57,197 bases of DNA. It comes from a bacterium. GTDB taxonomy: Bacteria; Hydrothermota; Tepidihabitantia; SM23-42; JAOAFX01. Positions 29,725 through 53,096 of this stretch are shown here, in pieces (within the stretch, counting starts at the first letter, position 1; each line of letters begins with the position of its first letter). The notes beneath the pieces are model-generated. The model ran no database searches, was not told where the DNA came from, and worked only from the letters and a program-made list of their open reading frames with translations. The stretch spans positions 92,804-150,000 of the forward strand of contig DASVHD010000035.1 in NCBI GenBank assembly GCA_036382775.1. The letters run 5' to 3'. Made by a program: the position numbers and the translations under genes.

Positions 29725-32700
29725 ATGGACGCGATCGAGATAATCCGCGATAAAGTCGAAAAGTATGGACGGCGCCAGAGCATGGCCGATATTTTGGCTC
29801 TGGTCTTGACCGCAGCCGGTCTTGCGGTTATCGCCGCTTCGGTCGCCCTGTTATTCCTCAAATCGCCATGGTTTGGACTGATCGGGATCGTTCCCTTTAT
29901 TTTATATCGGCGGCGCCGGGTAATCGACCGGGCGCGGGAGCTCGAACGTTGCGCAGGCCTGGAAGGGGAACTCGTCAACAGCCTGCAATTATCCCGGATC
30001 GCGCCGGATAGCCGCGAGCACTACTCATCCCAGCTCATCCACGCGTACATTGAAGGATCAGCCCAGAAAGCGAGAGTGATCGACAGTGTCGGGATGGTAT
30101 CGCATGCGGGACTGAAACGCGCGCTGTTCTTCTGCCTGGTCGCCATTGTGCTCGGCCTGCTGTATCCGGCACTCATGCCTTCACGGTTCTGGTTTTCTCT
30201 CCACCATCAGGCGCAATATGTCGTCGATCCCGAGCATGGTTCCTATGACAAGAACGCGGAAGCTGTCCTGACGATCGAATTCCTCGGTCCCTATGTGCCG
30301 CAACGCGTTGCCTGCGTGTTCACGGATCCGCTGGCGCCCGGCAAAAAACGCGAGACCATCACGGTCACTGACGGCATCGCCCGCCAGAAGATCACGGTGC
30401 AGTCCCAATTCACGTATCATTACGAATTTGCAGGCATGCGCACTCAGGAATACGCCATTACCGCCAAAGCACCGCTTTATCTCAGGGAGATCGCGTTTGA
30501 ACTCGATTACCCTGCTTACCTGGATATGACAAACGATGTCAAAAAAACGCGCATCCTGATCGCGCCGGCCGGCACCCGGGTCATAATGACCGGCCGCGCT
30601 TCCCAGCCGCTGCGCTGGGCCCGGTTTGAATACTCGGACACGGTCATTGATTGTGCTTGCGCCCGCGACTCGTTCAATGGCGCTTTCGCCATCAGCAAAA
30701 GCTCTGGTGCCCGGCTTTTCCTGACGTCCGCAAGCCGCGCGACGGAGACGATCGAAATTTACGCGATACCGGATCTGGCGCCGCTGGTGGACGTGTACTA
30801 TCCGGCCGCCGACATCAACATGCCGGTCGACCTGATCGTGCCGCTGGGCATCCGGTGCAGCGATGATTACGAGCTGCAAAGCGCCATCCTCCATTATCAA
30901 TTCAGGGAGGATGCACAGCGATCCCTGAAACTGAAGAGCCATGCGACCGAAGACACGATCGAGTACGAGTGGGACCTTTCCGACCTGGGCATGTTACCGG
31001 GGGACCGTATGTCCTACTATGTCACGGTACGCGACAATGCCGGCAACCAGACCAAAAGCAGGACCTATACCGTTTACTTCCCGACCATGGAACAGATCTA
31101 TCAGGATGTCACCGACCAGGAGAACATGCTCCAGGGAGACATCCGGGAGATGTCGAACCAGCAAGCGAAAGAATCAAGGGAAGTAGAGCGGATCAAGGAC
31201 AAGCTCATGAAGCAGCGCGAACTCGACTGGGCCGACAAGGAACGGCTGAAAGAGATGATGACGCGGGAAGAAACGTTCGTGAAAAAACTCGATGAATGGC
31301 AGGAGGAACTACGGCAAACGATCGAGCAGCTGGATAACGGCATCCTGCTGGACCAGGAATCGATCGAACGCCTGAAGGAAATAACCAGGATCCTCAACGA
31401 GATCGCGCCCGAGGAGATGCGCAGTGCTTTGGAGAATCTCGAACGCGAGCTGGCAAAAAACCCTGAGGATATAAAAAAGGCGCTGGAGAACCTGAAAGAC
31501 GCACAGGATGAATTCACCCGGTCTTTGGAACGGACACTGGAGATCCTGAAACGCTATCAACAGGAAGAAAAACTGAGGGAACTGGCCCAGCAAGCACAGG
31601 ATCTGGCACGCCAGGCGGAAAACATCCCCCCTGGATCCGATACTGCTCAGACAGTCAGGGACAAGGTAAAAGAGCTGCAGCAGAAGATCGACAGCCTGGC
31701 TGCGGAGATCGGTAAACTGGCTGAATCCGAAGGTCTCGAGCAGAACATCAAGGATGAGCTGAACATTCTTTCCCAAAAGGCCGGGGATATTTCGTCCAGT
31801 GACCAACCCCCGGGCAAGACCGAGCAGGACCTGAACAAACTTGCCGCGGACCTGCAAAGGCTCTATGAACAGCTCACGCAGGGCCGGAGCGCAAAGTTAA
31901 GAAAGAACATCCTGGAAACCATCCACCAGCTGATCGATATCTCAAAGCAGGAAGAAAGCTTGACGGTCATGAAGGATATCGATCCGGACATGCAAGACCA
32001 GATCATCGATGCCACCAGGACCATCGCCGACAGCATGTACGGTCAGCAGAAAAAGAGCCTGTACGTGATGCCCGGTACCGGCAAAAAAATCGCCCGGGCG
32101 ATCAAAGAAATGGAGCAGGCGAGGACCAAAGGCAGCCTGCGCCAGTCCGGTCGCGAAAACGCGCGCTCGGCAATGGCACAACTGAACATCGCCTGCCTGG
32201 AATTAATGGAGGGCCTTGATAAGGGATCCGAGGGCAGCTCCTCCACGGGGATGGACCAGTTCCTGCAAAACCTGTCAAGCATTGCCCAGGGTCAGATGTC
32301 GCTCGGGCAGTCGATGATGAGTCTCTTTCCTCTCCCGATGGCCGGCCCGAACGCGGAAATGATGAGCCAGATGCGCAGCCTTGCCGGCAAGCAACGCGAG
32401 CTGCGGCAGGCGCTCGAATCACTCGGGAACGAATCCGGAACCGGCCAGTTGGATCAGGGCGTGCTCGATAACATGGCGTCGGAGATGAAAGAACTCGAGC
32501 AAGCGCTATACCAGTACAAACTTGACCGCACGCTGATCGAACGGCAACAGATCCTGATATCGCGTCTGCTCGATGCGCAAAAATCTATCCGCCAGGAAGA
32601 TTTCCGGAAAGAAAGAAAAAGCGTGACCGGTGAGGATATGATCCGTTTGTCGCCGGGTGCGCTGCCGGACCGTTTGGGGATCGATGAACTGCGGGAACGT

Positions 32701-32787
32701 CTTTTACGCGCCCTGAAAGAACCGTATCCCGAAGAGTACGAAATCTATATTCGGGAGTATTTCAAAACCCTGCTGGAGGAAAAATGA
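29725..32787 (+). CDS. DUF4175-type large membrane coiled-coil protein
   Basis: 1020 aa. Two membrane helices near the N-terminus (about 24-62) and a third at about 130-150 precede a periplasmic beta domain (about 160-440), then some 450 residues of charged coiled coil rich in Glu, Gln, Lys and Arg (REMSNQQAKESREVERIKDK and following). The layout is that of DUF4175 (TIGR02302-like) proteins. Function unknown; an envelope-spanning scaffold is likely. A weak Shine-Dalgarno precedes ATG 29725. Its stop starts a chain of ATGA overlaps leading to the TPR gene. Confidence 0.78.
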   Translation: MDAIEIIRDKVEKYGRRQSMADILALVLTAAGLAVIAASVALLFLKSPWFGLIGIVPFILYRRRRVIDRARELERCAGLEGELVNSLQLSRIAPDSREHYSSQLIHAYIEGSAQKARVIDSVGMVSHAGLKRALFFCLVAIVLGLLYPALMPSRFWFSLHHQAQYVVDPEHGSYDKNAEAVLTIEFLGPYVPQRVACVFTDPLAPGKKRETITVTDGIARQKITVQSQFTYHYEFAGMRTQEYAITAKAPLYLREIAFELDYPAYLDMTNDVKKTRILIAPAGTRVIMTGRASQPLRWARFEYSDTVIDCACARDSFNGAFAISKSSGARLFLTSASRATETIEIYAIPDLAPLVDVYYPAADINMPVDLIVPLGIRCSDDYELQSAILHYQFREDAQRSLKLKSHATEDTIEYEWDLSDLGMLPGDRMSYYVTVRDNAGNQTKSRTYTVYFPTMEQIYQDVTDQENMLQGDIREMSNQQAKESREVERIKDKLMKQRELDWADKERLKEMMTREETFVKKLDEWQEELRQTIEQLDNGILLDQESIERLKEITRILNEIAPEEMRSALENLERELAKNPEDIKKALENLKDAQDEFTRSLERTLEILKRYQQEEKLRELAQQAQDLARQAENIPPGSDTAQTVRDKVKELQQKIDSLAAEIGKLAESEGLEQNIKDELNILSQKAGDISSSDQPPGKTEQDLNKLAADLQRLYEQLTQGRSAKLRKNILETIHQLIDISKQEESLTVMKDIDPDMQDQIIDATRTIADSMYGQQKKSLYVMPGTGKKIARAIKEMEQARTKGSLRQSGRENARSAMAQLNIACLELMEGLDKGSEGSSSTGMDQFLQNLSSIAQGQMSLGQSMMSLFPLPMAGPNAEMMSQMRSLAGKQRELRQALESLGNESGTGQLDQGVLDNMASEMKELEQALYQYKLDRTLIERQQILISRLLDAQKSIRQEDFRKERKSVTGEDMIRLSPGALPDRLGIDELRERLLRALKEPYPEEYEIYIREYFKTLLEEK

Positions 32788-40712: not shown

Positions 40713-41353
40713 GGGGTCACTTTATCCGGTGCCGTCTTTTTTCTTTTATGTTTGATATATTCCGTCAGCATGGGGATCAGGGAAATGAGGATGATCGCGA
40801 TCACGAAGAATTTCAGGTTATTTTTTACAAACGGTATGTTGCCGAAGAAAAACCCGGCAAAGACGAACAATGCCACCCAGGCCACGCCGCCGATGACGTT
40901 ATAACTGATGAACGCAAAGTAGTTCATCCTCCCGACCCCGGCCACGAACGGCGCGAAAGTGCGGACGAACGGCACGAACCGGGCGATCACGATGGTCTTT
41001 TTGCCGTAGCGGTCAAAAAACGACTTTGTCCTGTCCAGGTGTTCGCGCTTGATAAAGCGGGAAAAGACCTTTTCGCCGAAAAAGTGTCCGATCCAGTAAT
41101 TAACCGTGTCGCCGAGGACTGCGGCCAGGGCGAGAATAAAGAACAGCACGTACACGTTCAGAACGCCGGCGGCGGCAAAAGTACCGGCGATGAAAAGCAG
41201 CGAATCTCCGGGCAGGAACGGAGTCAGCACCAATCCCGTCTCCATGAAGATGACAAGGAATAAGATGACATAAACGTAGTTGCCATAGGTCTGAATAAGC
41301 GTCAGGAGATAAGTATCGACGTGCAGGATGAAATTGATGATGTTTTTTATCAT
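40709..41353 (-). CDS. DedA-family membrane protein
   Basis: 214 aa with four to five membrane helices. FMETGLVLTPFLPGDSLLF and RFVPFVRTFAPFVAGVGRM are the DedA signatures (ExGxxxPxxPGD; RxxPxxRxxxxxxAG). These proteins are thought to translocate undecaprenyl phosphate or other lipids across the inner membrane. The C-terminus is strongly basic (HKRKKTAPDK). Translationally coupled to the HAD phosphatase downstream, so the two may act on a shared lipid carrier phosphate, an inference from position only. Confidence 0.88.
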   Translation of the reverse strand: MIKNIINFILHVDTYLLTLIQTYGNYVYVILFLVIFMETGLVLTPFLPGDSLLFIAGTFAAAGVLNVYVLFFILALAAVLGDTVNYWIGHFFGEKVFSRFIKREHLDRTKSFFDRYGKKTIVIARFVPFVRTFAPFVAGVGRMNYFAFISYNVIGGVAWVALFVFAGFFFGNIPFVKNNLKFFVIAIILISLIPMLTEYIKHKRKKTAPDKVTP

Positions 41354-41360
41354 GGTTCCA

Positions 41361-41939
41361 TTAAGAATGCGTTTTTTTATTTATTTTTTTTAAAAACTCT
41401 TCCGCTTTTTTCCCGGTGGCATGGCGGCTGTTTGTTGTCTGCCGCTTTACGAACTCGCGTGCCGCCTGTTTTTCTTTCATGCCCAGGTCATCATAAAATG
41501 TTTCCAGCGCCAAAATGACCTTGCCGAGCGCGATATTGCGGCATTCAACCGTATCGTAATCGTAGTGTTCGACCTTAAGCAGTTTTCTGGTGATCCGTCC
41601 CCGGTACTCGCACTTTACCTGGGCGATCTCGGCCAGAGCCGAAACCGCATGACCCGCGGTGATAAGCTTGCCAGCATTGAGAAAACCGCATAATCTGCCT
41701 AGCAACCGGCCGGCTTTTTTCTCTTTGTCGGCTTTTATCAGGCACCCGACAATGTCGATCGCGGTCCATTTAAGGATCTGGTTTTCGCTGTCCAAAAGGT
41801 CGATAAAAAATTCAATATGCGGATAGAGCCTGCGGGGATTTTCTCTTGCCGTCGCGACCAGCGCCTTCGCGCAGCCGTACTTAATCTTTGGATCGCTGGA
41901 GGACAGGTCTTTCAGATCCCAGGACGTTGTTTTTTTCAT
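41361..41939 (-). CDS. HEAT-repeat protein
   Basis: 192 aa, pairs of antiparallel helices (KIKYGCAKALVATAREN, QILKWTAIDIVGCLIKADK, HAVSALAEIAQV) in the HEAT/armadillo style. Lys/Arg-rich C-terminus. ATG 41939 lies 7 bases after a TATAAT box, a probable leaderless start. DedA begins 8 bases after its stop, so the three genes form one operon. Function unknown; a second HEAT protein lies at 44120-44653. Confidence 0.7.
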   Translation of the reverse strand: MKKTTSWDLKDLSSSDPKIKYGCAKALVATARENPRRLYPHIEFFIDLLDSENQILKWTAIDIVGCLIKADKEKKAGRLLGRLCGFLNAGKLITAGHAVSALAEIAQVKCEYRGRITRKLLKVEHYDYDTVECRNIALGKVILALETFYDDLGMKEKQAAREFVKRQTTNSRHATGKKAEEFLKKINKKTHS

Positions 41940-41946
41940 TATGGAT

Positions 41947-41974
41947 ATTATACCAAATCTAATGCAAAATTCAA
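41947..41974 (-). promoter_or_regulatory. promoter of the HEAT-dedA-HAD operon
   Basis: Minus strand TTGAAT (41969-41974), 16 bases, TATAAT (41947-41952); start codon 7 bases on. Confidence 0.7.
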
Positions 41975-42017
41975 GGAACTGATTGTGGTTAATCTGCTCT
42001 CTACGTCAATAATATTA

Positions 42018-42054
42018 ACATTCTAACATTCTAACATTCTAACATTTTAGAATG
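42018..42054. repeat. tandem 8-bp repeat ending in a hairpin
   Basis: ACATTCTA is repeated three times plus ACATTTTA; the end forms a perfect stem CATTCTAA/TTAGAATG (42035-42054). It marks the change from core genes to the AT-rich island. Confidence 0.7.
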
Positions 42055-42102
42055 ATCGAATCTTTCCCGGGGTTTAATCTTGCATGGAATGGTTCTATCT
42101 TA

Positions 42103-42255
42103 TTATCCTGCCGCTTTAACAATTTCTCTTGCCCAGTTGGCAGCGCGCTCCAGCTCCACATCCTTTTCAAAACCCTTGCCCAGAGCATCACCCATCGCCC
42201 GGGCGATTTTCTCCGTGTTGCCGTAAACCGAATCATAAACGATCAGTATTTTCAT
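42103..42255 (-). pseudogene. internally deleted flavodoxin
   Basis: A 50-aa frame not visible as a normal-length gene: MKILIVYDSVYGNTEKIARA is a flavodoxin N-terminus with its FMN-phosphate loop, but it passes at once into ELERAANWAREIVKAAG, which resembles a flavodoxin C-terminal helix. The central ~90 residues that hold the isoalloxazine are gone, in frame. Its first 23 bases overlap the end of the AbiEii gene. Non-functional as a flavodoxin. Confidence 0.65.
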
Positions 42256-43078
42256 GGTTGTTTTTGCTCCTTTCCGTAAAAGGCATAAAAAAATCCTTTA
42301 TCAGAGTTACTAATTCGTTGACAGCAAAATCAAAATCGATAAGCTCAGGTATTTGATTTTTCAGCCTGATGTTCCACAATCTTTTGTAATCTGGATGTTT
42401 AATCGCTCTTAACAATGACGACACCTCAATATCAGCACCGCTTTTTTCATAAAAAGACTCCCTGACCGTCCTGATACTTATATTAGACTTAAATAAAAAC
42501 AATAAATCCCATAAATCACGCGGTTCATTAACAACATCTAGAATTCGTAATATTTTTTCCGCAGCTATCGATTCCAAGTCATATGTCTTGAGCTGACGGG
42601 TTTGTCCTTTATAATCATCAAACGTAAATTGGATTTTTCTCTCTTTTGAAGACAGAACAATTATATCCTCTATCATATCTATTTTCAACTTCTTATCCAT
42701 TTGTATCTCAGGTATGATATTGTATGCGATCAGCAACTGGATGTGACCCTTTTGCGGACGCAGTACCTCGCTTATGTTCAGGTCAATAGGCAATACCTTT
42801 TTTGTCTCATCGACAACGCTGGTAAATGCGGTTTCATAAAACGTGCTTTTATTGCCATGGTGTATAATGAAATCAAGATCTTCAGAATACCTGAATTCCG
42901 GAAAGTATATTTTTTTAAGGGCTGTGCCTCCCCGGAAAATCAATTGGGTTCTAAGAAAATCGTTGCCGGCAATGCGGTCAAGGAGCAATTCAATAAAATA
43001 GTCTTTTTCAATCGTATCTTCCGATACTTTGTATTTATCACTTAGTCTCAGGGCAAGGTTGTAATCGATCATCCTCAC
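42233..43078 (-). CDS. abiEii: AbiEii-type nucleotidyltransferase toxin
   Basis: 281 aa. FRGGTALKKIYFPEFRYSEDLDF (residues about 48-70) carries the nucleotidyltransferase motif of AbiEii/AbiGii toxins (GGTxL...R.SEDLDF), with Lys/Asp-rich following strand (KKLKIDMIEDI) and AAEKILRILDVVNEPRDLWDL. Toxins of this group transfer nucleotides to tRNA or other targets and mediate abortive infection. GTG 43078 overlaps the antitoxin stop (GTGA); ATG 43072 is an alternative. The gene end overlaps the flavodoxin remnant. Confidence 0.85.
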   Translation of the reverse strand: MRMIDYNLALRLSDKYKVSEDTIEKDYFIELLLDRIAGNDFLRTQLIFRGGTALKKIYFPEFRYSEDLDFIIHHGNKSTFYETAFTSVVDETKKVLPIDLNISEVLRPQKGHIQLLIAYNIIPEIQMDKKLKIDMIEDIIVLSSKERKIQFTFDDYKGQTRQLKTYDLESIAAEKILRILDVVNEPRDLWDLLFLFKSNISIRTVRESFYEKSGADIEVSSLLRAIKHPDYKRLWNIRLKNQIPELIDFDFAVNELVTLIKDFFMPFTERSKNNHENTDRL

Positions 43079-43914
43079 GCCTGCAAGATTTTCCTAATTT
43101 GCTCCGCGCCCACATTATCCAACAAGCGCCAGCTATTGCCTTTTATTGCTCTCTTACCCATTGTCGGATCGAAAATATCGTACCTCAATCTTACATATTT
43201 TTTTAGCGCATCCAAAAGCCAGGAAGGACCTATCTCAGTGAGTTCAAGAATATAGCCAATCCTTTTTGCCACCACATTCTTGCCGTATTTTTGAACATAC
43301 GACAGTAATAGTTTATAATCAATTCTATCTTTAGCCAACCAAATGCCTTTTGCCACTTCGGTCATGCCGCCGCAGTATTCCGGATGAGCGACAGCATCAA
43401 TGATTGTTTTTTCAATGTTCGACAGATTGGCTTTTTCGGTCTTTGTAACCCAGGCGCTGGTCACACCCCAGATCTTGGATTTATCAACGAATACAAAGAT
43501 AACCGTTTGCTTTAGCGCCTTGGGAACAACCTGTCTTATCGGCGTGGCCACAAAAATTTTCAGTAATGGCTGGGTCGTCATACCCCAGTACCGCATCGCA
43601 CTGTAGAATGCGATATAATAATGCGGTGAATTGGCAATCTCCCGGGCGACTATATACCAGTTGCCGGAATAGCTGTCAATTGATCCGAGTTCCTGGGGGA
43701 TAATAATATGTATTCCCTTTTTGAGAGTCGATATTATTTTTCGCTTTGTAAGCTCGGAAACCAGACGACCCGCCGAGAAGTAATTCAACCCGGTTATTCG
43801 CTCCACATCCTTTATCGTAAAGATCAGCTTATGCTCATTGTAGAGTTCCGTAATCAACCCGGCACTCGTTCTTCCAAGCGTTCTAATGATTCTTTTATCC
43901 ATATTATCAACCAT
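43075..43914 (-). CDS. abiEi: AbiEi-type antitoxin/transcriptional repressor
   Basis: 279 aa. N-terminal winged helix (TIKDVERITGLNYFSAGRLVSELTKR, cut here as residues about 32-58), then the AbiEi-C domain (YIAFYSAMRYWGMT, VIFVFVDKSKIWG, VTKTEKANLSNIEKTIIDAV). AbiEi silences its toxin by repressing the operon. An inverted repeat at 43927-43945 in its promoter fits such autoregulation. Start ATG 43914 has no strong Shine-Dalgarno. Confidence 0.85.
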   Translation of the reverse strand: MVDNMDKRIIRTLGRTSAGLITELYNEHKLIFTIKDVERITGLNYFSAGRLVSELTKRKIISTLKKGIHIIIPQELGSIDSYSGNWYIVAREIANSPHYYIAFYSAMRYWGMTTQPLLKIFVATPIRQVVPKALKQTVIFVFVDKSKIWGVTSAWVTKTEKANLSNIEKTIIDAVAHPEYCGGMTEVAKGIWLAKDRIDYKLLLSYVQKYGKNVVAKRIGYILELTEIGPSWLLDALKKYVRLRYDIFDPTMGKRAIKGNSWRLLDNVGAEQIRKILQA

Positions 43915-43926
43915 TTCTGTATAGAA

Positions 43927-43972
43927 TTAACGCTCTCATCGTTAATTATATACACAAATAGTAGTTTGTCAA
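43927..43972 (-). promoter_or_regulatory. promoter and operator of the abiE operon
   Basis: Minus strand TTGACA (43967-43972), 16 bases, TATAAT (43945-43950). Immediately after the -10 box lies TTAACG-N7-CGTTAA (43927-43945), a likely AbiEi binding site. Confidence 0.75.
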
Positions 43973-44092
43973 GCGTTATATAACATAAACCCAGACACAG
44001 ATTTATACAGCAAAGACATAGTTTCCTCTCCCCTTGTGAAAAGGAGTTTAACCAATCTGAACGGATCGGCTTTGTTCAACGCTGTAAGCCAA

Positions 44093-44124
44093 GTAGTGGT
44101 CGAGCTAGAGTGTGGCAGGTCAGC
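44093..44124. repeat. short dispersed repeats (GTAGTGGTCGAGCT and GTGTGGCAGGTCAGC)
   Basis: GTAGTGGTCGAGCT (44093-44106) recurs at 44885-44898, where it continues into the palindrome GTCGAGC-TT-GCTCGAC (44891-44906). GTGTGGCAGGTCAGC (44110-44124) recurs at 49507-49521 at the broken start of the YaaC-like gene. Here it spans the stop codon of the HEAT gene. Confidence 0.65.
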
Positions 44125-44653
44125 CTTTATTCTTATCAATGAATTTTAAAGCCTTTAGATAAACGTTTTTTACTCCGTTATTGGTTTCCTTTGCCAATAT
44201 TTCAACAAATTTGTTAACAAGTTCTTTTTGCAACCCGAGATTGCTTTTTGCTATTTCCGTTAGAGCGAATGCCGCACTCCATCTTACGACCGTGCCTTTG
44301 TCCATTGTATTTTCTAAAAGTTTTGGTATAGCTTTTGAGACTTCTTTGGGAAATCGCTTGGCTACATTGCCGATAATTCTTGAGGCTTCCCATTTCACCC
44401 TTGGAGCCTTGTCAGTAAGACTTTCTATAACAAAATCAAGACAGTTTTCGGCAAATTCGGGATCTTGCTGGGTAACGTACTCCAATGCTTCAATACAATT
44501 ACCCTTATCCGCAGTAGAGCCGGCTTTGAAACAACCGATAAGCTCATTGACCAGGGTTTTGTCATTATTCAATGCTTGCGCCAGGAGCGTTACGATTTCC
44601 TTCGGTTTCTTGTTTGACTTGAGTATTTTTTCTATTTTACTCTCAGGCAGCAT
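44120..44653 (-). CDS. HEAT-repeat protein of the accessory island
   Basis: 177 aa from ATG 44653, which follows GAGGAGG by five bases. Five helical pairs (NCIEALEYVTQQDPEFAEN, APRVKWEASRIIGNVAKRF, TVVRWSAAFALTEIAKSN) of HEAT type. AT-richer than the HEAT gene at 41361 and not closely similar to it. The stop codon lies in a dispersed repeat. Function unknown; solenoid adaptor proteins occur in several defence systems but nothing ties this one to defence except position. Confidence 0.7.
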   Translation of the reverse strand: MLPESKIEKILKSNKKPKEIVTLLAQALNNDKTLVNELIGCFKAGSTADKGNCIEALEYVTQQDPEFAENCLDFVIESLTDKAPRVKWEASRIIGNVAKRFPKEVSKAIPKLLENTMDKGTVVRWSAAFALTEIAKSNLGLQKELVNKFVEILAKETNNGVKNVYLKALKFIDKNKG

Positions 44654-45113
44654 ATTATCCTCCTCTGCAATTATCAAATATTGATTTCCGGTTTGTATGT
44701 GCGTTCATTTTTTGCTCATTTAATTATATCGATACCCCAGTTAAATTCAAGATTCAACAATTTATGTTATGTCGCGAAGCAACGAAGTCGCTGAATCAAT
44801 CTCATACTTACCGGAACCAAACAAAACAGGACAGGCCGGTTTTGTTCCTAATATCATTTATGCTTCTGCCATGCTGCAAGAAATGTAGTGGTCGAGCTTG
44901 CTCGACAAGCGTTTGAAAACTAAAAAAAGTATCATGAGTTAGTTTTCGTTCCTGACGTAAATCTGACAGAAATCTGACGAAAAAGAATCATATACAAGAC
45001 CTGACGAAAAGCTGACATATTTCTGACACAATATTATTCTCTCCCCGACACCGTTGGAAATAACAAATCTGGTATTGTTTTTATTCGGAATTTAGTAATT
45101 AAGAACACCTTGA
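44654..45113 (-). promoter_or_regulatory. promoter of the HEAT gene and array of CTGAC repeats
   Basis: No gene in this stretch. Minus strand promoter TTGAAT (44745-44750)-N16-TATAAT (44723-44728) serves the HEAT gene. Further up, CTGAC occurs six times on the plus strand at 44952, 44963, 44974, 45001, 45012 and 45023: two groups of three with exact 11-bp spacing, as in direct-repeat binding sites of response regulators. A GTCGAGC/GCTCGAC hairpin is at 44891-44906. Confidence 0.65.
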
Positions 45114-46637
45114 TTAAATATGCACTAGTACATAATATGTAGCTCTTCCAGTGCCTTTTCTTTCTATAAAATTGAGGCTCATCAATTTTCTGAACTTTTG
45201 GTTTGCGGTTTCCCTGGTAATTTTGAACCTTTTTGTGATATCTTCACTTGCTACTCTCCCACGCTCCCAGATGAAATTCAGAATCTCTTTCTCTCTATCT
45301 GTAAGCTGAGCGTATGTTTCTTGTGGAATTCTGTATATCGGTGCCGACTTCTCCCGACCGTAGAAAGTGACAACAAAATATCCCCCATCATAATCAAAAT
45401 CAGGAGGACGAAGCCCATAATTTCTCAGTTGAGAAGGCATACCAGGAATACCATAACCCTCTCTTTCCATTAAATCCATAACAAATGCCGCGTCGGCTAT
45501 TCTTTGATTTCGTCTAACATTAGTCACATCAAAAGATTTTATACGTTCTATTGTATTGGGTCGGAGAAGATGCCCAGGGCTTTTTATTATTACCCTATCT
45601 CTAAACATTCGGAATGAGATATGGGCACCTAGTGTGTAATCCCTGTGAACCAATGCATTAACTATGGCTTCTCGAATGACTTCCTCAGGGTATTCAAAAT
45701 CTTTATTCGCCCTCTGGAAGCCCTTGATTCGAGGTACCTTGGTAACGTGTTTCTTATAAAAATTTACAGAAGCTTCTACCATGTTAAACAGTGGACCAGT
45801 GATGTTCCCACTACCATCTCCAACTATTTTTTCAAGCGATATTCCATCTTTGGGAATCCCACTAAAACACTCTACTGTAATGGTATGTTCTTTAAGAAAA
45901 ACCTCAGGGTGTTCTCCGAAAATCACAATTCCAGCTAAAGTCGGTATATTATGACCTCCCCGTTTAACTAGATATTTTACCTTCCTAAAGTAATCCCATA
46001 ATTTTATGGACGGAATTTGATATGACAACTTTTTCTTTTTTAAATAATTTTCAATTGCCTTATATGAAAAATCACTGGTAGAAGCTTCAGGCACTGGTCT
46101 TTCTTCTTCAAGCGATGGACATTCCATTTTATCTGGCATTGTCATAGTATCCTCCTTTTTTTTGCTTTTGTTTTGCATATTACTTAAATAATCTTTGTTT
46201 ATTATTCTTATTTCCTCCGCAAGATCTTCATCAAAGAAATCAACTTTTACGCCATGCTTGCGTAGATATATTACACCATGTATCTCAGGATTAGGGTCAA
46301 GAATACCAACTACTACTCTAACAATACCTTTCTCAACTATCCTTTGAGCACAGGGTATTTTAGGTGGCTTTCGTTCAGTGCACGGCTCTAAGGTCGTATA
46401 TAGTGTACCACCAAATGAATCTTCATCAGTCTGCATTTTCATCAAAATTGTGAACTCTGCATGATCGCCAGCACTGAAATGACAACGATGAGCCCTGGAA
46501 AATGTTTTTTTATTTTTGTTAACCAACACAGCCCCGACCATAGGATCTACTTTGTTAATATGCTCTGATTTTGCTAGTTTCATCTCCTCAACAGCAATTT
46601 CCATGAAATTTCTCTCTCTCCTATTAGGCCTACTCAT
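45114..46637 (-). CDS. fusion of RibD-like deaminase, divergent HATPase (RecG-associated type) and winged helix
   Basis: 507 aa from ATG 46637 (AAGGAG 11 bases upstream; GTG 46649 possible). Residues about 10-150: a cytidine-deaminase-fold zinc domain close to RibD-D (GDHAEFTIL with HAE, LEPCTERKPPKIPCAQRIV with PC...PC, then GILDPNPEIHG). Residues about 185-420: the region that in other proteins follows an AlbA_2/Schlafen domain, with EEVIREAIVNALVHRDYTLG, the N-box-like motif of HATPase_c_4. C-terminus (about 440-507): a winged helix (LTDREKEILNFIWERGRVAS, ITRETANQKFRKL). The usual AlbA_2 domain is replaced by a deaminase. A nucleotide-altering defence or regulatory role is inferred; no riboflavin genes are near. 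Confidence 0.72.
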   Translation of the reverse strand: MSRPNRRERNFMEIAVEEMKLAKSEHINKVDPMVGAVLVNKNKKTFSRAHRCHFSAGDHAEFTILMKMQTDEDSFGGTLYTTLEPCTERKPPKIPCAQRIVEKGIVRVVVGILDPNPEIHGVIYLRKHGVKVDFFDEDLAEEIRIINKDYLSNMQNKSKKKEDTMTMPDKMECPSLEEERPVPEASTSDFSYKAIENYLKKKKLSYQIPSIKLWDYFRKVKYLVKRGGHNIPTLAGIVIFGEHPEVFLKEHTITVECFSGIPKDGISLEKIVGDGSGNITGPLFNMVEASVNFYKKHVTKVPRIKGFQRANKDFEYPEEVIREAIVNALVHRDYTLGAHISFRMFRDRVIIKSPGHLLRPNTIERIKSFDVTNVRRNQRIADAAFVMDLMEREGYGIPGMPSQLRNYGLRPPDFDYDGGYFVVTFYGREKSAPIYRIPQETYAQLTDREKEILNFIWERGRVASEDITKRFKITRETANQKFRKLMSLNFIERKGTGRATYYVLVHI

Positions 46638-46937
46638 TTCTTCTCTCACTCCTTATAAATTTGCATTATTTCATAGTGGACGTATTTATATTATGCCTTT
46701 ACTATCATTCTATAAGTAATACGACACCGACGAATACAATTTCTATAGCACCACTACTATTGTCATCAACAATAATGTCAGTACGAACATAGCAAGCATT
46801 ACTGTTTCGCCTATTGTCCATTATAAAAGCTGTTGCCGAAGGTTATTTAGGGGAATTTTGATTCCCTTCTTATCAAATGTTATATACTTATGAGCTTTTT
46901 TTATCATTTCACTATTCGTTATTTGTGATAACATAGC
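46638..46937. other. AT-rich intergenic stretch, no gene recognised
   Basis: I see no convincing promoter, hairpin or coding frame here beyond the Shine-Dalgarno of the deaminase-fusion gene at 46648-46653. A hydrophobic frame near 46735-46800 is discussed under rejected items. Confidence 0.5.
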
Positions 46938-47723
46938 TTAAATTCTAAATGTAAGCGCAATATCGTCGAAAAGTGCTATTGAAGAATCAAAGTCTTCTTG
47001 GGTAGTTGTGAATGTGAGGGTATACAGATTTTCCTTGACCCTGTCTACCACAAGGATTTGGTAAAGCGCTAACTGCTCGCCCAAGTTAGTTACCCAATCG
47101 ACCCGATATTTCTTTGCGGCAAGACCCAGGAAGAGAAAATTCTCTTTGAAAACAAGTTTTGCATTAGGCATGAGTGCGAGAACATCTGCTAAGCCACTTT
47201 CGTACATTTCATCTAATTCACCTTTCCAGGTATCAATATTAGTAATTATCACATTCACATTCCTAGCAAATCCCAGTCTTTCAACAGACTTCAAATCTCT
47301 AGCAAAACCGTATTGGGTTTCTTGAGGAAATCTAGAAAACTCCCAATATTCAGGGTAGCAAAAGCCGAATTGAAACTCCTTTGACACTTCCGGTTTATAG
47401 CCTATGGGGACAATAAAATTATCCAATTTGCTGGTAATTAGCTGTTCAATCTGAGTTTCGAGTCTGCGAATCTTTTCATCAGCAGAGAACTTCTTAAATT
47501 CCCTTTCCGTAGATGTAATTCTAAAGTAGGTATCTCGAAGCAGAAGGAAAATTACAACAAATCCTGCTGCTGCCCCGCCTATACTTACACCCTTATTCTG
47601 AACCTGAGCAAACGAATCCAGAAAGTAAAAGAGAACATAGGCAGCCACTAAGCTCAGGATGAACAATACAACAACTACAAGTAAGAAGCTTCTTCTCTCT
47701 CTTGAGTGATTTATGTCAGTCAT
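46938..47723 (-). CDS. membrane protein with soluble C-terminal domain, unknown
   Basis: 261 aa. Two membrane helices (about 12-35, LLVVVVLFILSLVAAYVLFY; about 46-62, IGGAAAGFVVIFLLL) and a short coiled coil precede a cytoplasmic or periplasmic beta domain (about 105-261; EFQFGFCYPEYWEF, NVNVIITNIDTW, LYTLTFTTTQEDFDSSIALF). The ending LTFTTTQEDFDSSIALFDDI resembles PsbP/DUF1795-type domains. ATG 47723 has AAGGAG seven bases upstream. AT-rich like its neighbours. Function unknown. Confidence 0.6.
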   Translation of the reverse strand: MTDINHSRERRSFLLVVVVLFILSLVAAYVLFYFLDSFAQVQNKGVSIGGAAAGFVVIFLLLRDTYFRITSTEREFKKFSADEKIRRLETQIEQLITSKLDNFIVPIGYKPEVSKEFQFGFCYPEYWEFSRFPQETQYGFARDLKSVERLGFARNVNVIITNIDTWKGELDEMYESGLADVLALMPNAKLVFKENFLFLGLAAKKYRVDWVTNLGEQLALYQILVVDRVKENLYTLTFTTTQEDFDSSIALFDDIALTFRI

Positions 47724-47777
47724 ATTTTATCTCCTTCAAGTTAATGACGTTTAACGACTATGCTTTGTCGTGCGCTA

Positions 47778-48683
47778 TTATTTAATTTCGTCATTCCGCA
47801 ATTTATCTATTTTTTTCTTTAAAGCTAATTTAGGATTTAAATCTACAGCTTTTAAGAAATATTTAAGAACACTTTTTTTGCCATCCAAGACCAGAAATAA
47901 TTCTCCAATTTTTCTATATGATGTCGCCTTCTTATTAACTGAAACATTTTTATTTATTACCTTTTCGTATTTGTTAATTAATTTCTTAATAATAACTTCA
48001 TCTTCACAAGCTGCTTTCTCACCATATTCGCTTTCTGCTCTATTAAATAGATCATATAGATTGAGAAAATCATCCAATCTTTCTTCTTCTAGACAATAGC
48101 CTTCAAAGGAATATTTAATTCTATCATTTGATATTATTAACGAAACTGTTTTTTCTTTAGAGTTAATTTCATATGAATCTGCTCGGCTAACTTGAGGTCT
48201 AAATTTATTAATGATTGATGCATCCTTTATATTAATGATAAAAAGCTTATCACCATCTTCATGATCGCTATCCAAAGAACAGAAAACACAAAAATTCCCG
48301 TTAGAATCAATTCCATTATTTAATAAATTTGCGTGCAAGCGATAACTAAAAACGATATTCCCCTTAATATCTTTTACATAGAAGATACCCTGTAAATCTG
48401 AGGTAAATAACCAATCATTCACAATATAAATACCACTGTTTGAAATTTTGCAATCGTTCGGTCTTTGTATTTTATCATCGATTAATAATATTTTATCATT
48501 CTGTAATATTACAATTCTTCCATTACCAGAATCTCTATGTCCAATCATGTCTCCATTCAAATTGGCATCAGCCCATGCAATCATATACTGTTTGTTTTTT
48601 GAATAAGAGAATTGTCCAATAAAATTAATATTATCAATAGTAACGAAGTCACCCATAAACGACAATTTTACGTTCGGGAACAT
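47778..48683 (-). CDS. predicted beta-propeller plus helical tail, unknown
   Basis: 301 aa. Residues 1-170 show repeated short strands with Asp/Asn turns (GRIVILQNDKILLIDDKIQ, GIYIVNDWLFTSDLQGIFYV, GNFCVFCSLDSD), as in WD40-like propellers; about 215-301 is helical with one TPR-like unit (YRKIGELFLVLDGKKSVLKY, FLKAVDLNPKLA). The ATG 48683 is preceded by GAGGA at a long distance, so the start is uncertain. Upstream sequence has the palindromic words ACATG and CATGT (48719-48745). Not a family I recognise. Confidence 0.5.
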   Translation of the reverse strand: MFPNVKLSFMGDFVTIDNINFIGQFSYSKNKQYMIAWADANLNGDMIGHRDSGNGRIVILQNDKILLIDDKIQRPNDCKISNSGIYIVNDWLFTSDLQGIFYVKDIKGNIVFSYRLHANLLNNGIDSNGNFCVFCSLDSDHEDGDKLFIINIKDASIINKFRPQVSRADSYEINSKEKTVSLIISNDRIKYSFEGYCLEEERLDDFLNLYDLFNRAESEYGEKAACEDEVIIKKLINKYEKVINKNVSVNKKATSYRKIGELFLVLDGKKSVLKYFLKAVDLNPKLALKKKIDKLRNDEIK

Positions 48684-48749
48684 TTTTTATAGTATCCTCA
48701 TATTATCTAACTAATGTCACATGAAACATGACAGAAAGCATGTCGTATT

Positions 48750-49523
48750 TTAACACGGTTGGCGTACTGCTGGAAGCATGAAATTTTGGTTTGTAATTTC
48801 ACATGATATTTGGTCTATAAATTCAATGGGTGCGGCTTTAATAAATTCTGATAGTAACCAGTTTTGTTTTAGCTCAAAATGCCTAAAAAGCACGGTTGGT
48901 TGATATCTTGCCAATTCACTTAGCCTGTGCATTGAAGCAAGCATAATAGTCAAGGGATGTCTGCCGATAGCTTTTGGATGTGTATGTCTTTTTAAATACC
49001 ATAAAGTGTTGCTACCAAATATATATTGAAAATCCTTTCTAATTTTTTCGTGATATGTTGTTAATTTTATTATATTGTTTTTCCTTTCATTTCCAGAACG
49101 ATACCAGTCAAAACGTTTCTTCTTTCTTACTATGAACTTATCTTTGACACCCTCATCTTTTTCATAACCCATTGGACTAATTTTGTTTATTATATATTGG
49201 TTTGAATAATTTTCTGGTAATTCAGCACAAATCCACGCTTCATTTGACCTACATTTAGCCACAAAATGGGGATTGATTACTGGAATATATATTTCGGAAT
49301 ATCCACTTGGAAATGTAAGATAGAAACAACGATGAATAAACGGTAAATTATATAGCAAATCTTTTAGTGAATATTCATTACAGCCAGATTCGCCAAAATA
49401 ATTACACAAACTTGATAAAATTCCACTGGAACGAAATGTTATTAATTCATTTTTCAGATTCGTAACATCCTTTTTAACGCTACCCGTTGCTCCATGAAGC
49501 TCAAAAGTGTGGCAGGTCAGCAT
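48750..49523 (-). pseudogene. YaaC-like gene truncated at the 5' end
   Basis: 257 codons. LHGATGSVKKDVTNL, then ITFRSSGILSSLCNYFG, lines up with the middle of Bacillus YaaC (about residue 95 onward, AHG...GLF), and HPLTIMLASMHRLSELARYQP, WLLSEFIKAAPIEFIDQI with its conserved C-terminal half. The first ~90 residues are missing: the present start ATG lies in the dispersed repeat GCTGACCTGCCACAC, so the gene was cut at the repeat. No Shine-Dalgarno. YaaC has no known function. Confidence 0.55.
49507..49521. repeat. second copy of the GTGTGGCAGGTCAGC repeat
   Basis: Identical 15 bases to 44110-44124. It forms the first codons of the truncated YaaC-like frame. Confidence 0.7.
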
Positions 49524-49553
49524 TTCTCCGAAATTTTAACAGGTAGGCCGAAA

Positions 49554-50345
49554 TTATTTTAGATTTTGAGATTTTCCCCAACGTTCTTCAAAACTCTTCT
49601 TTAACACTGGCAAGAATTTAGTTACTAATTTTCTAGGCAAAAAGACAACAAATGATTCTTTATCTGCTAAATCTTTTATACCATGGCCCACTATAATTAA
49701 TGCATTATCCGCAATTATATATCTATCATGTAATTCATAAGGCTTGTCATATTTTCTCATCGCGATGTTCTTGAATTCTTTTCTAAACCGTTTGAGATTG
49801 ATTCCAAACTTTGTAATATTACCCTGCTCTTCAGTGCCAGGTCTACATGATAAAAACCTTATTTTTCTGTTTTTCCCGAATTTTTCAAGTACATAAAAAG
49901 TACCGTTTCCATAGAATGGATCTACAATACAAAGATTGCCTTTTAATAAATCAATAATTTTGGGGAAATTTTTGTTTGGATCTGTCCAAGAATCCTTCCC
50001 TGTAAAAAACAAAACCTCTTCCGAAGTTGATGAAGATACGATCTCTTGTCCTACTTTTTGTTTGTCTATCCAACCAGGGAACCAAAACTTCCTTTTGTTT
50101 CTACCCTTACCTAAAATCTTAATTTTTATTATATCTTCTTTAAGTAATGGCTCCATTAATGCAGTAAGACAATTAACTTTAATCTTCTTCCCAGCCCCCT
50201 CATTCAATAAGTGAGTCAGTTCTTGGGAAGATAGAATTTGGAAAAAATCTCCATCTTTTAATAATTTACAAACCCTGTATGCAAAACTTCTTTTATTAGT
50301 TAAAAACTTCTCGCATCTTTGTAAAATCGTGTTTTTGATAACCAT
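49554..50345 (-). CDS. winged-helix protein with PLD-like C-terminal domain
   Basis: 263 aa. Helical N-terminal region (about 1-85) with a winged-helix look (LSSQELTHLLNEGAGKKIKV), a linker with FWFPGWID, and a C-terminal alpha/beta domain (about 120-263; LCIVDPFYGNGTFYVLEKFG, RFLSCRPG). ELHDRYIIADNALIIVGHGI fits one phospholipase-D half-motif, HxR-x4-D followed by GxG, seen in single-motif PLD-like proteins. A nuclease or sensor is possible. It ends an operon of three small winged-helix genes, two bases after the last. Confidence 0.55.
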   Translation of the reverse strand: MVIKNTILQRCEKFLTNKRSFAYRVCKLLKDGDFFQILSSQELTHLLNEGAGKKIKVNCLTALMEPLLKEDIIKIKILGKGRNKRKFWFPGWIDKQKVGQEIVSSSTSEEVLFFTGKDSWTDPNKNFPKIIDLLKGNLCIVDPFYGNGTFYVLEKFGKNRKIRFLSCRPGTEEQGNITKFGINLKRFRKEFKNIAMRKYDKPYELHDRYIIADNALIIVGHGIKDLADKESFVVFLPRKLVTKFLPVLKKSFEERWGKSQNLK

Positions 50346-50347
50346 TA

Positions 50348-50698
50348 CTACACCTTAATATAAAGCCATTTTTTTGACGGAGACCCATTAACGTTTCTCT
50401 TTATTTTTTTTAGCAGTCCTTTGCGTACAATTTTTCTCAAGGGGAGAGTTAAGTCGGATGCTTTTAAATGGTAGTCTTTCGTTTTTAATTCGGATATAAT
50501 TTCACTTATGGTTTGCGGAGCGTTAAAAAAACCCTCATCAATAAGTGATTTAATTTTCTCTATCGTGCTTCCGTGTTTATACCATGTATTTGTTTTTGAT
50601 ATGACCTTGACAGCTTTCTTACCCTCGAGCGCAGTTATTCTTTTTTCGTGATTTTTTAGTATCTTGATGATTTTACTCATTTCTTTTTCGCTTGGCAT
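50348..50698 (-). CDS. small winged-helix-like protein
   Basis: 116 aa. Coiled N-terminus (KIIKILKNHEKRITALEG), then an SWITCH-like helical domain (STIEKIKSLIDEGFFNAPQT, ISEIISELKTKDYHL, LTLPLRKIVRKGLLKKI) ending in KKWLYIKV, a typical wing. It overlaps the previous gene by 26 bases. Resembles small archaeal-type HTH proteins; DNA or protein target unknown. Confidence 0.6.
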   Translation of the reverse strand: MPSEKEMSKIIKILKNHEKRITALEGKKAVKVISKTNTWYKHGSTIEKIKSLIDEGFFNAPQTISEIISELKTKDYHLKASDLTLPLRKIVRKGLLKKIKRNVNGSPSKKWLYIKV

Positions 50699-50927
50699 CT
50701 GTTTCCTCTTCTATATAAGGGTATTTTTGCAGAAATTTTCTATCCCCCCGTTTTCCCTGTGATAGTAAAAAATCTGCTCTCTCCAAAGCCTTGCGTGTTG
50801 CATCACCAAAATTATATCCTTTATTATGTAATTCTTCTTCTACTTCATTCAGAGTCTTGCCTTTGATAAAAAATTTGTTTTGCCACAATATTTTCAAAGC
50901 ATCCGGGGCAGTTTTTGCTATTTTCAT
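50673..50927 (-). CDS. small winged-helix-like protein
   Basis: 84 aa, helical and basic: GKTLNEVEEELHNKGYNF, ATRKALERADFLL, then a Lys/Arg-rich tail (DAKRKRNE). The helix pattern is that of a minimal winged helix. Overlaps the downstream gene by 26 bases and follows the upstream one by 9. Confidence 0.55.
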   Translation of the reverse strand: MKIAKTAPDALKILWQNKFFIKGKTLNEVEEELHNKGYNFGDATRKALERADFLLSQGKRGDRKFLQKYPYIEEETDAKRKRNE

Positions 50928-50936
50928 TTCAGGTAC

Positions 50937-51164
50937 CTAAATAAAATATTTATATTTACCAGCGCCATCCTTTTCCCTTTGTATACGCTCTCTCCTAAGT
51001 AGATAAAGTAGATTGACTCTGATGTCGGTGAGTTTTGCGGTGCAACCTAATCTGTCTTTAAGTTCTTTCTTTATTTCTTCAGCGGTTTTTGGGTTCTTTT
51101 CCAGGATTTTTAAAATTTTTTCTGCCAAACTTGTTCCTTGTTTCTTCTGTTTCTTTTTCATCAT
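50937..51164 (-). CDS. small winged-helix-like protein
   Basis: About 75 aa from ATG 51164 (an in-frame ATG at 51182 gives 81). Lys-rich N-terminus, then KILKILEKNPKTAEEIKKEL, LTDIRVNLLYLLRRERIQRE and GAGKYKYFI, a winged helix. AGGTG precedes ATG 51164. First full-size gene of the operon with the PLD-like protein. Confidence 0.6.
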   Translation of the reverse strand: MMKKKQKKQGTSLAEKILKILEKNPKTAEEIKKELKDRLGCTAKLTDIRVNLLYLLRRERIQREKDGAGKYKYFI

Positions 51165-51172
51165 CTTTGCAC

Positions 51173-51268
51173 CTACCTCCATTGCTGTTCATCCCTTATA
51201 TAACCCAGCTCACGCCTTCCCAATAATTTGAGAATAATGGCTAACTGAGATTGTTTATTATCGAACAT
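51173..51268 (-). CDS. 31-aa leader ORF of the winged-helix operon
   Basis: MFDNKQSQLAIILKLLGRRE... (31 residues) from ATG 51268, preceded by AAGGAG at a 12-base distance. Its stop TAG lies in the GGAGGTAG that serves the next gene, so translation of the two is probably coupled. It is too short to classify; helical and basic. Confidence 0.4.
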   Translation of the reverse strand: MFDNKQSQLAIILKLLGRRELGYIRDEQQWR

Positions 51269-51338
51269 GCTGATATTTCTCTCCTTAGTTCTTTTACCCT
51301 AAAAGCTACGTTAATTTTGTCCTCTACTTACTGACTTA

Positions 51339-51366
51339 AGTATAAATAATTTAGGATAATTGTCAA
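51339..51366 (-). promoter_or_regulatory. promoter of the winged-helix/PLD operon
   Basis: Minus strand TTGACA (51361-51366), 16 bases, TATACT (51339-51344). About 65 bases of leader precede the 31-aa frame. Confidence 0.7.
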
Positions 51367-51525
51367 TAACTGGATGCAGGAGTCGAGTTCGCTGGACATA
51401 TGTTCTATATAAAAAGTATAATACATATGCAAAATCACCTTTTATTCTAAACATCACCTGAAATTTTATGATTTTATAGTTAAAAACATAGAAAATACGG
51501 CAGTTCAGTTTTTTACCCAGTAATG

Positions 51526-52470
51526 CTATTGCTCCCTAGCAATCCGGAAACGGTCTTTTGTCTGTTGATTTCTTATTTCGGCAAAATTTTTCGATGCATT
51601 TTCTTTAAGTTCTTTAATATTCCTTAAAAATAATTTACGCATTTTCTCGGTTTCATTGGCTACGTTTGATAAATATTTTGGTAAATATGATTCCTTTATC
51701 ATGTCAATACAATAATTCGCCTTCATATTTCGTGAAGATATCGAATGAATGAGAACCATATGGTCATTTTCTTTTATCTTGTATCTTGATCCTTTTGTTT
51801 TACATTCGTACAAGTCGCCGCTGAACAAAATCACGGGATAAATGATTTTTATAAAAAGAGCTGCCTCCTTAGAACTCTGGTGATCAGCATTAACTTTTAT
51901 ATACTCATTATACTCTTTCTCTTTGGATCTCGTGGCTTTACACAATCCATATAGTGTTCCATACAATTCACCGTGATTCGCTTCGTTTTTCCCCCCTGCT
52001 CCGTGTTTAACAGTACAAAATTGTGTTGCAATATATTCACACTCCCTGTAGTGAGATACAACATCTGCAAGTTCATATTCCATTGGTACTCCCTCAAAAA
52101 ACCATGGAACACTACAGCATGCTACAGCAATATCAAATTGACCCAGAAATGTTGCTTTTCTTGTGAAACCAACTATTGGAAAGTGATTATTTTTACAAGC
52201 TATTAGTATTTCAACTTCAAAACTGTCAAGGATATCTTCACTTTCAGATAGTTTGATAGAACGAGTCGCATCTGCATCAAGTTCACGTGATTCCCCTGAG
52301 TCTATATCTTCATACGGTGTGTTTGTAATGACATTATATTTAAACTTCTCAAGAATGGGACATATACGCTGTTCTAACAAATAACCTGAATACTGTAGAG
52401 CATCACGGATTTGTTGCGTCTTTATCTTATTAAAACTCATTCTTTTATCAAACCGTTCATTCATATTCAT
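51526..52470 (-). CDS. PD-(D/E)XK-like nuclease, putative
   Basis: 314 aa. SRELDADATRS, then DSFEVEILIACKNN fits a D...ExE-x-L-I-x-C-K core of the PD-(D/E)XK fold (Asp at about 65, Glu/Lys at about 87-93). The rest is mixed alpha/beta (HGELYGTLYGLCKATRSKEK) with a charged helical tail. AT-rich and alone with its own promoter; no methylase partner is adjacent. A restriction-like defence nuclease is inferred. ATG 52470 or 52464; a second TATAAT lies 2 bases before 52470. Confidence 0.5.
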   Translation of the reverse strand: MNMNERFDKRMSFNKIKTQQIRDALQYSGYLLEQRICPILEKFKYNVITNTPYEDIDSGESRELDADATRSIKLSESEDILDSFEVEILIACKNNHFPIVGFTRKATFLGQFDIAVACCSVPWFFEGVPMEYELADVVSHYRECEYIATQFCTVKHGAGGKNEANHGELYGTLYGLCKATRSKEKEYNEYIKVNADHQSSKEAALFIKIIYPVILFSGDLYECKTKGSRYKIKENDHMVLIHSISSRNMKANYCIDMIKESYLPKYLSNVANETEKMRKLFLRNIKELKENASKNFAEIRNQQTKDRFRIAREQ

Positions 52471-52538
52471 TTATTATATCTATTTCCAAAACAAACACTT
52501 CTCCTGAACTTTTATGTCTCTATCGCTTCTCTGTCTCT

Positions 52539-52567
52539 ATTATCCACAGTTTACAGTTCTTTGTCAA
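52539..52567 (-). promoter_or_regulatory. promoter of the putative nuclease gene
   Basis: Minus strand TTGACA (52562-52567), 17 bases, GATAAT (52539-52544). Confidence 0.6.
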
Positions 52568-52645
52568 TGACATTTTATACGTGGTAGTTTATTTTTAATA
52601 ATGGCCATATATTCACACCTTCTGGCTAGAGCCAAAACAATAACC

Positions 52646-53017
52646 TTAATCTCCGGACGGCTGGATGGTGCTGGCTTCCATCATGAGCATCACTGTTCTT
52701 TGCGGGGCTCTTGTCCGGTGCGTAAAGCCCTTTGATATCGTCACTCCCTGATCGGCATACAATTCAATCGTTCTGTCCTTCAGATCGATAAACAAGTAAC
52801 CGTCCAAGACAAAAAAGAATTCATCGGTATCATCATGCTTATGCCAGTGATACTCGCCCTGGACTATGCCAACCCTTATTACGCAGTCATTAACCCTTGT
52901 GAGCGTCTGGTTGTACCACTTGTCTTTGCATTCGGTCACCATTTTAGGAATATCAATAAGTTCGAAATGCTTGTATTTGATATCCAGTTTGGTCACGTAA
53001 TCGAATTGTTTTCCCAC
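52646..53017 (-). CDS. cupin-domain protein
   Basis: 123 aa, single cupin barrel: GEYHWHKHDDTDEFFFVLDG (metal-binding His, His and Glu of cupin motif 1) and GVTISKGFTHRTRAP (motif 2 His). Probably a metal-dependent isomerase, dioxygenase-like or binding protein; substrate unknown. GTG 53017 has GGGAGG five bases upstream. GC-richer than the island, so it belongs to the flanking core genome; it follows the por terminator. Confidence 0.85.
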   Translation of the reverse strand: MGKQFDYVTKLDIKYKHFELIDIPKMVTECKDKWYNQTLTRVNDCVIRVGIVQGEYHWHKHDDTDEFFFVLDGYLFIDLKDRTIELYADQGVTISKGFTHRTRAPQRTVMLMMEASTIQPSGD

Positions 53018-53030
53018 TGATCCTCCCTAT

Positions 53031-53076
53031 AAAAAGCCAGTCCCGCCTTCATAAAGCAAAATCATAAAGGCGGGAC
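53031..53076 (-). terminator. terminator of the por operon
   Basis: GTCCCGCCTT (53040-53049) pairs with AAGGCGGGAC (53067-53076), perfect 10 bp, 17-base loop; on the minus strand TGGCTTTTT follows. It lies 21 bases after the porB stop. Confidence 0.85.
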
Positions 53077-53096
53077 CGGAAAGAATGTAAGGTCGC

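Follow-up and report, generated by a model that had tools for sequence, protein, structure and literature searches.

A RibD-related deaminase in the N-terminal slot of a bacterial Schlafen-type ATPase and winged-helix protein: a candidate conflict effector

The window, the whole stretch of 57,197 nucleotides analysed here, carries on its minus strand a gene (45114-46637) whose product, a single ORF of 507 aa, joins a deaminase, a HATPase_c_4 ATPase and a winged helix (wHTH). The question raised by this locus is what a deaminase does at the head of such a protein. Judging by its sequence, the product is best described as a familiar switch that carries a putative effector of a new family. The architecture is absent from papers in the literature searched, but it may exist in nr or InterPro, which lie outside that search. 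No PADLOC model covers the fusion.

The ORF listing starts the gene at a GTG at 46649. The ATG at 46637 is preferred, since a ribosome-binding site read from the sequence, AAGGAG (46649-46654, minus strand), lies 11 nt ahead of it, a spacing that makes the 507-aa start the likely one. The first-pass annotation had recognised a deaminase, an ATPase and a winged helix in this frame, and Pfam profiles, motifs and AlphaFold2 models bear out the ORF, its coordinates and all three segments. The deaminase domain (residues 1-160; 46158-46637, minus strand, as for all parts of this gene) is assigned to the RibD-related 'HAEFT' family by Pfam, the model and the tree, with a Pfam match to dCMP_cyt_deam_1 at residues 12-115 (1.6e-14) in the 511-aa numbering that starts from the GTG. 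Its HAE motif (46455-46463) comprises H59 and the catalytic E61, both invariant in an alignment of 27 rows, and the PC...PC zinc ligands extend from P85 to C96 (46350-46385, from the alignment). With the zinc residues H59, E61, C86 and C96 all intact, the HxE and PC..C motifs and the modelled fold mark the protein as a zinc-dependent deaminase of the CDA fold, with predicted activity.

The C-terminal half opens with a connector domain (residues 181-336; 45630-46097) that is common to AlbA_2- and DUF4062-type ATPases and contains 'PTLAGIVIFG' (alignment A6). The N-box of the GHKL-type ATPase, REAIVNALVHRDY (45636-45674), is intact and directly precedes the Pfam match to HATPase_c_4; its E, N, A, H and Y are invariant in 37 proteins. 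HATPase_c_4 itself (PF13749, Pfam 5.8e-21) covers residues 337-425 of 507 (45363-45629), or 341-429 in the 511-aa numbering. It is followed by the C-terminal winged helix, residues 444-504 of 507 (45126-45308), which rests on the model and on several Pfam and NCBIfam wHTH matches, all weak, at 448-508 in the longer numbering. Structure prediction of both halves, proposed in the first-pass annotation and carried out on each half separately with rows from the window and genome loci only, gave a mean pLDDT of 90.2 for the deaminase half and 87.4 for the C-terminal half. In Foldseek, the best PDB match of the deaminase model is B. subtilis RibG (RibD/RibG; 4g3m, 1.4e-11), and that of the C-terminal model is DIP2311 (3lmm, 2.4e-15), a solved member of the same ATPase family.

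Whether the two halves truly belong to one gene was settled by a search of 147 genomes of the phylum. A second intact fusion, L024 in genome G144 (508 aa, of which residues 11-508 were matched), aligns with the window protein end to end at 33% identity, spanning the junction. In genome G022, the start of the deaminase runs into the winged-helix coding sequence in a different frame; by its sequence, this copy is what an internal deletion has left of an L024-like gene. The intact L024 and the decayed copy show that the fusion is real, which is near certain; an assembly join or gene-prediction artefact, the former suspected in the first-pass annotation, was rejected. Counting the fusion in other genomes, also suggested there, thus gave 3 carriers among the 147 (2 intact, 1 decayed). 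When these three copies were used to build a deaminase-domain profile (A2), the intact ones scored 298-320 bits and the decayed one 208, all of these being self-scores; the next-best match, an ordinary protein of RibD size, reached 82 bits. Although G144 and G022 belong to different classes, the DNA of their copies is 85% identical across 500 bp, which points to horizontal transfer; the patchy distribution of the fusion within the phylum appears consistent with it. The tree of the C-terminal halves places the window protein and L024 apart, but a single clade, and with it one origin for both deaminase fusions, is not rejected (p-AU 0.106). No fusion covering both halves was found on the plasmids, phages or IMG/VR contigs searched, and one scan of genome contigs returned solely a TadA-like protein. 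A stretch upstream of the fusion, rich in Asn and Ser codons, is conserved between L105 (upstream of 2070, minus strand) and L045 (3700-3861). In L105 it is in frame with the fusion, in L045 it is ended by a stop, and it may be a leader ORF or a DNA repeat.

The deaminase had been read as RibD-type, which was half right: it is RibD-related in sequence and fold, but the tree and column counts set it apart as a separate family with a changed pocket. Its match to the NCBIfam RibD model TIGR00326 (4.8e-20) reaches 72 bits against a curated cut-off of 156. A tree that also takes in RibD and TadA rows groups the window protein, L024 and two IMG/VR proteins, L083 and L084, in one clade (support 97/85), separate from the RibD clade of 30 rows (support 96/93). 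Position 31 in window numbering, an Asp here (46545-46547), is Asn in 30/30 aligned RibDs and Asp, Asp, Lys and Ser in the members of the window clade (n=4). Position 51 is Arg in the window protein (46485-46487) and throughout its clade (4/4), His in 30/30 RibDs and Asn in all 14 rows of TadA and dCMP deaminases. The Asn of 'NPxVG' and the His of 'GxH' are thus present in every one of the 30 RibDs and in 0/4 window-clade members, while column counts show H59, E61, C86 and C96 unchanged across the deaminases compared. The two RibD residues correspond to those numbered Asn23 and His42 in B. subtilis RibG. The Asn equivalent to position 51 contacts the base in TadA and in yeast cytosine deaminase. 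The changes at positions 31 and 51 therefore suggest that the deaminase acts on a substrate other than that of RibD, and on these alignments it belongs to a family of its own, related to RibD but with a different substrate pocket. Among its IMG/VR members, L084 (3916-4809) has an uncharacterised C-terminal tail and L083 (9610-10644) an uncharacterised N-terminal half.

The place that the deaminase occupies is best seen by comparison with 35 HATPase_c_4 relatives from the phylum. Their N-terminal slot holds SLFN_AlbA_2 in 22 cases and DUF4062, likewise at the N-terminus of its carriers, in 6 (L036, L026, L027, L005, L041 and L012). In the alignment of the C-terminal halves, homology starts just past the AlbA_2 site, at a stretch resembling 'RPVPxxSxxD' that is also present in the window protein, and PF04326 (SLFN_AlbA_2) has no match in the window protein or L024. 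The slot alignment therefore upholds the earlier claim that a deaminase stands where AlbA_2 normally is. In the C-half tree, the proteins with DUF4062 form two separate groups. Their single origin is rejected (p-AU 1.6e-5), which implies that the N-terminal domain has been exchanged on the HATPase_c_4-wHTH chassis, DUF4062 having been swapped in at least twice. DUF4062 has been reported as a TIR-like NADase that causes abortive infection in antiphage defence (PMC13174449). The combination of a Schlafen RNase, a minimal histidine kinase and a wHTH has been tied to BREX-type loci across at least 1017 taxa and is able to serve as an abortive antiphage module, the Schlafen target being tRNA (PMC12839542). 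A fusion of SIR2 with a Schlafen domain is reported in the pAgo literature (PMC6299218).

The gene lies in an insertion between a HAD and a PFOR-beta gene (40713-53096), delimited by synteny and GC content. The two flanking genes are directly adjacent in G012 and G013, of the same family, and are 12.4 kb apart here. GC content is 0.31-0.42 around the fusion gene and mostly 0.48-0.58 in the flanks, the low-GC core covering about 42.0-52.6 kb; from these sequence features, the island is taken to be acquired. It contains an AbiEii/AbiEi pair (42233-43914, minus strand; Pfam AbiEii 4.5e-26, PADLOC AbiEi 4.3e-67), a YaaC-like gene and several genes without an assigned function. The first-pass annotation had described an island with AbiE and nuclease genes; the AbiE pair in an acquired low-GC insertion was found, but no nuclease gene was recognised by Pfam, PADLOC or NCBIfam profiles. 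No convincing att-like direct repeats were seen at the island ends. A 20-nt repeat, 95% identical, lies at two gene boundaries of the island (44109-44128 and 49506-49525) and may be a recombination site or chance, and the low-GC island also contains a 17-nt inverted repeat (94%; 44026-44042 and 50432-50448) with 6.4 kb between its arms. A HEAT-repeat protein adjoining the fusion gene (44120-44677) has a weak PADLOC match to OloA (7e-4), and 49554-50345 in the same island weakly matches the PADLOC phage-defence candidate PDC-S05 (1.5e-10). Elsewhere in the window, 29725-32787 encodes a 1020-aa protein without a Pfam or PADLOC match. L024 is flanked by an AbiTii-like gene and by a fragment that resembles a tyrosine recombinase, the recombinase being named from sequence only. 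Neighbour genes thus differ between the fusion copies, so the fusion protein probably works alone, and proximity to AbiE is weak evidence of a defence role.

Regarding the question posed at the outset, the chances appear about even that the protein is a single-protein conflict effector, probably anti-phage, built on the bacterial Schlafen chassis with the deaminase as its effector; this reading is limited by the finding of two intact copies among the phylum genomes, with differing neighbours. In such a protein, the C-terminal half, made of the connector, the GHKL-type ATP-binding domain and the winged helix, would form the sensor and switch, and the N-terminal slot would hold the effector, here a zinc deaminase replacing the Schlafen RNase or the DUF4062 NADase. 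Because these two are effectors in the same slot, the deaminase may by analogy be an effector released by the switch, and the case for an effector role leans most of all on the DUF4062 NADase found there. In the uninfected state, the switch would hold the deaminase silent. An infection signal, either a nucleic acid or a phage protein, would be sensed through the ATPase and wHTH, and we infer that it alters the ATP state and thereby exposes the deaminase. The exposed enzyme might deaminate a free nucleotide or a nucleotide-like metabolite, which would halt phage growth, possibly at the cell's expense. The first-pass suggestion of a protein that could alter nucleotides in response to a signal agrees, as a proposal, with the evidence. 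A bolder version, in which the protein represents an undescribed type of defence, is advanced only tentatively: a Schlafen-chassis deaminase with a new substrate and an Arg at the base-contact position would, upon infection, destroy or edit a nucleotide that known defence deaminases spare.

Four other explanations have to be weighed against an effector role. The idea that an assembly or gene-prediction artefact merged two genes could draw on the division of the assembly into 51 contigs; its probability is negligible, as it is already refuted by the independent intact fusion in G144 aligned over the junction, together with the decayed G022 copy and the position of the gene inside a 355-kb contig. 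Very improbable, too, is a riboflavin or housekeeping enzyme fused by accident, despite the TIGR00326 match. This reading is contradicted by a score far under the cut-off, the absence of a C-terminal reductase domain from the window protein (its C-terminal half is ATPase and wHTH according to Pfam), the loss of the RibD pocket residues and the genome's own RibD on another contig; a canonical RibD or riboflavin operon gene was ruled out on these grounds. The related suspicion of a common housekeeping fusion in a riboflavin operon likewise fails, with carriers in 3/147 phylum genomes.

If the protein were a transcriptional regulator, the deaminase would either sense a ligand or act as a metabolic enzyme; the ATPase would pass its state on to the winged helix, and that domain would control nearby genes or its own. 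The winged helix resembles those of DNA-binding regulators, Pfam names DIP2311-like proteins transcriptional regulators, and a role in gene regulation would suit the wHTH and ATPase just as well. Yet all catalytic and zinc residues are retained, effector-type domains fill this slot on the same chassis, and no conserved adjacent genes offer themselves as targets of control, so that regulation is unlikely but has to be reckoned with. Distinctly doubtful is a nucleic-acid editor, in which the target of the activated deaminase is RNA or DNA (phage or tRNA) and not free nucleotides. The nucleic-acid deaminase models Inv-AAD and MafB19 match the fusion deaminases weakly, and the usual occupant of the slot, Schlafen, acts on tRNA (PMC12839542). 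The top sequence and fold match, however, is RibD, a small-molecule deaminase, and the Asn of TadA is missing at position 51.

Should the effector reading be true, the HATPase_c_4-wHTH unit would be an infection switch of general use, on which RNase, NADase and deaminase effectors can replace one another. The deaminase version would let the signal of the switch be probed cleanly, with a product readable by chemistry, and a distinct deaminase family would be added, with possible use in nucleotide chemistry.

Among known systems, AvcD, an anti-phage dCTP deaminase, sets a precedent for defence through the deamination of nucleotides (PMC10511110); it is a candidate parallel only, with a weak profile match. 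The window protein differs from it in deaminase subfamily (NF041025, 19.2 bits vs a cut-off of 400) and in the regulatory half. No AvcD-type structured RNA antitoxin was seen: the upstream 298 nt fold no better than shuffles (z -0.71) and have no Rfam match, results that bear on structured RNAs and leave room for an unstructured antitoxin RNA. RibD/RibG proteins are the closest relatives in sequence and fold, and the window deaminase retains their HAE, PC..PC and DPNP motifs. Unlike them, it comes without a reductase, shows Asn to Asp/Ser/Lys and His to Arg changes and an altered zinc loop, and falls in a separate clade. The DUF4062-HATPase_c_4 proteins (6/35 in the phylum) resemble it in that this chassis again carries a different domain at its N-terminus, but their effector is a TIR-like NADase, not a deaminase. 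In Swarozyc, a DUF4062 NADase occurs with a portal-binding AUX protein, and a HATPase is unmentioned there (PMC13174449). The bacterial Schlafens, which combine SLFN_AlbA_2 with HATPase_c_4 ('minimal histidine kinase') and wHTH and are linked to defence loci (PMC12839542), share the connector, the GHKL-type ATPase and the winged helix in the same order, with the fold match to DIP2311 (3lmm) at 2.4e-15. They differ at the N-terminus, where the window protein has, instead of the AlbA_2/RNase domain, a zinc deaminase.
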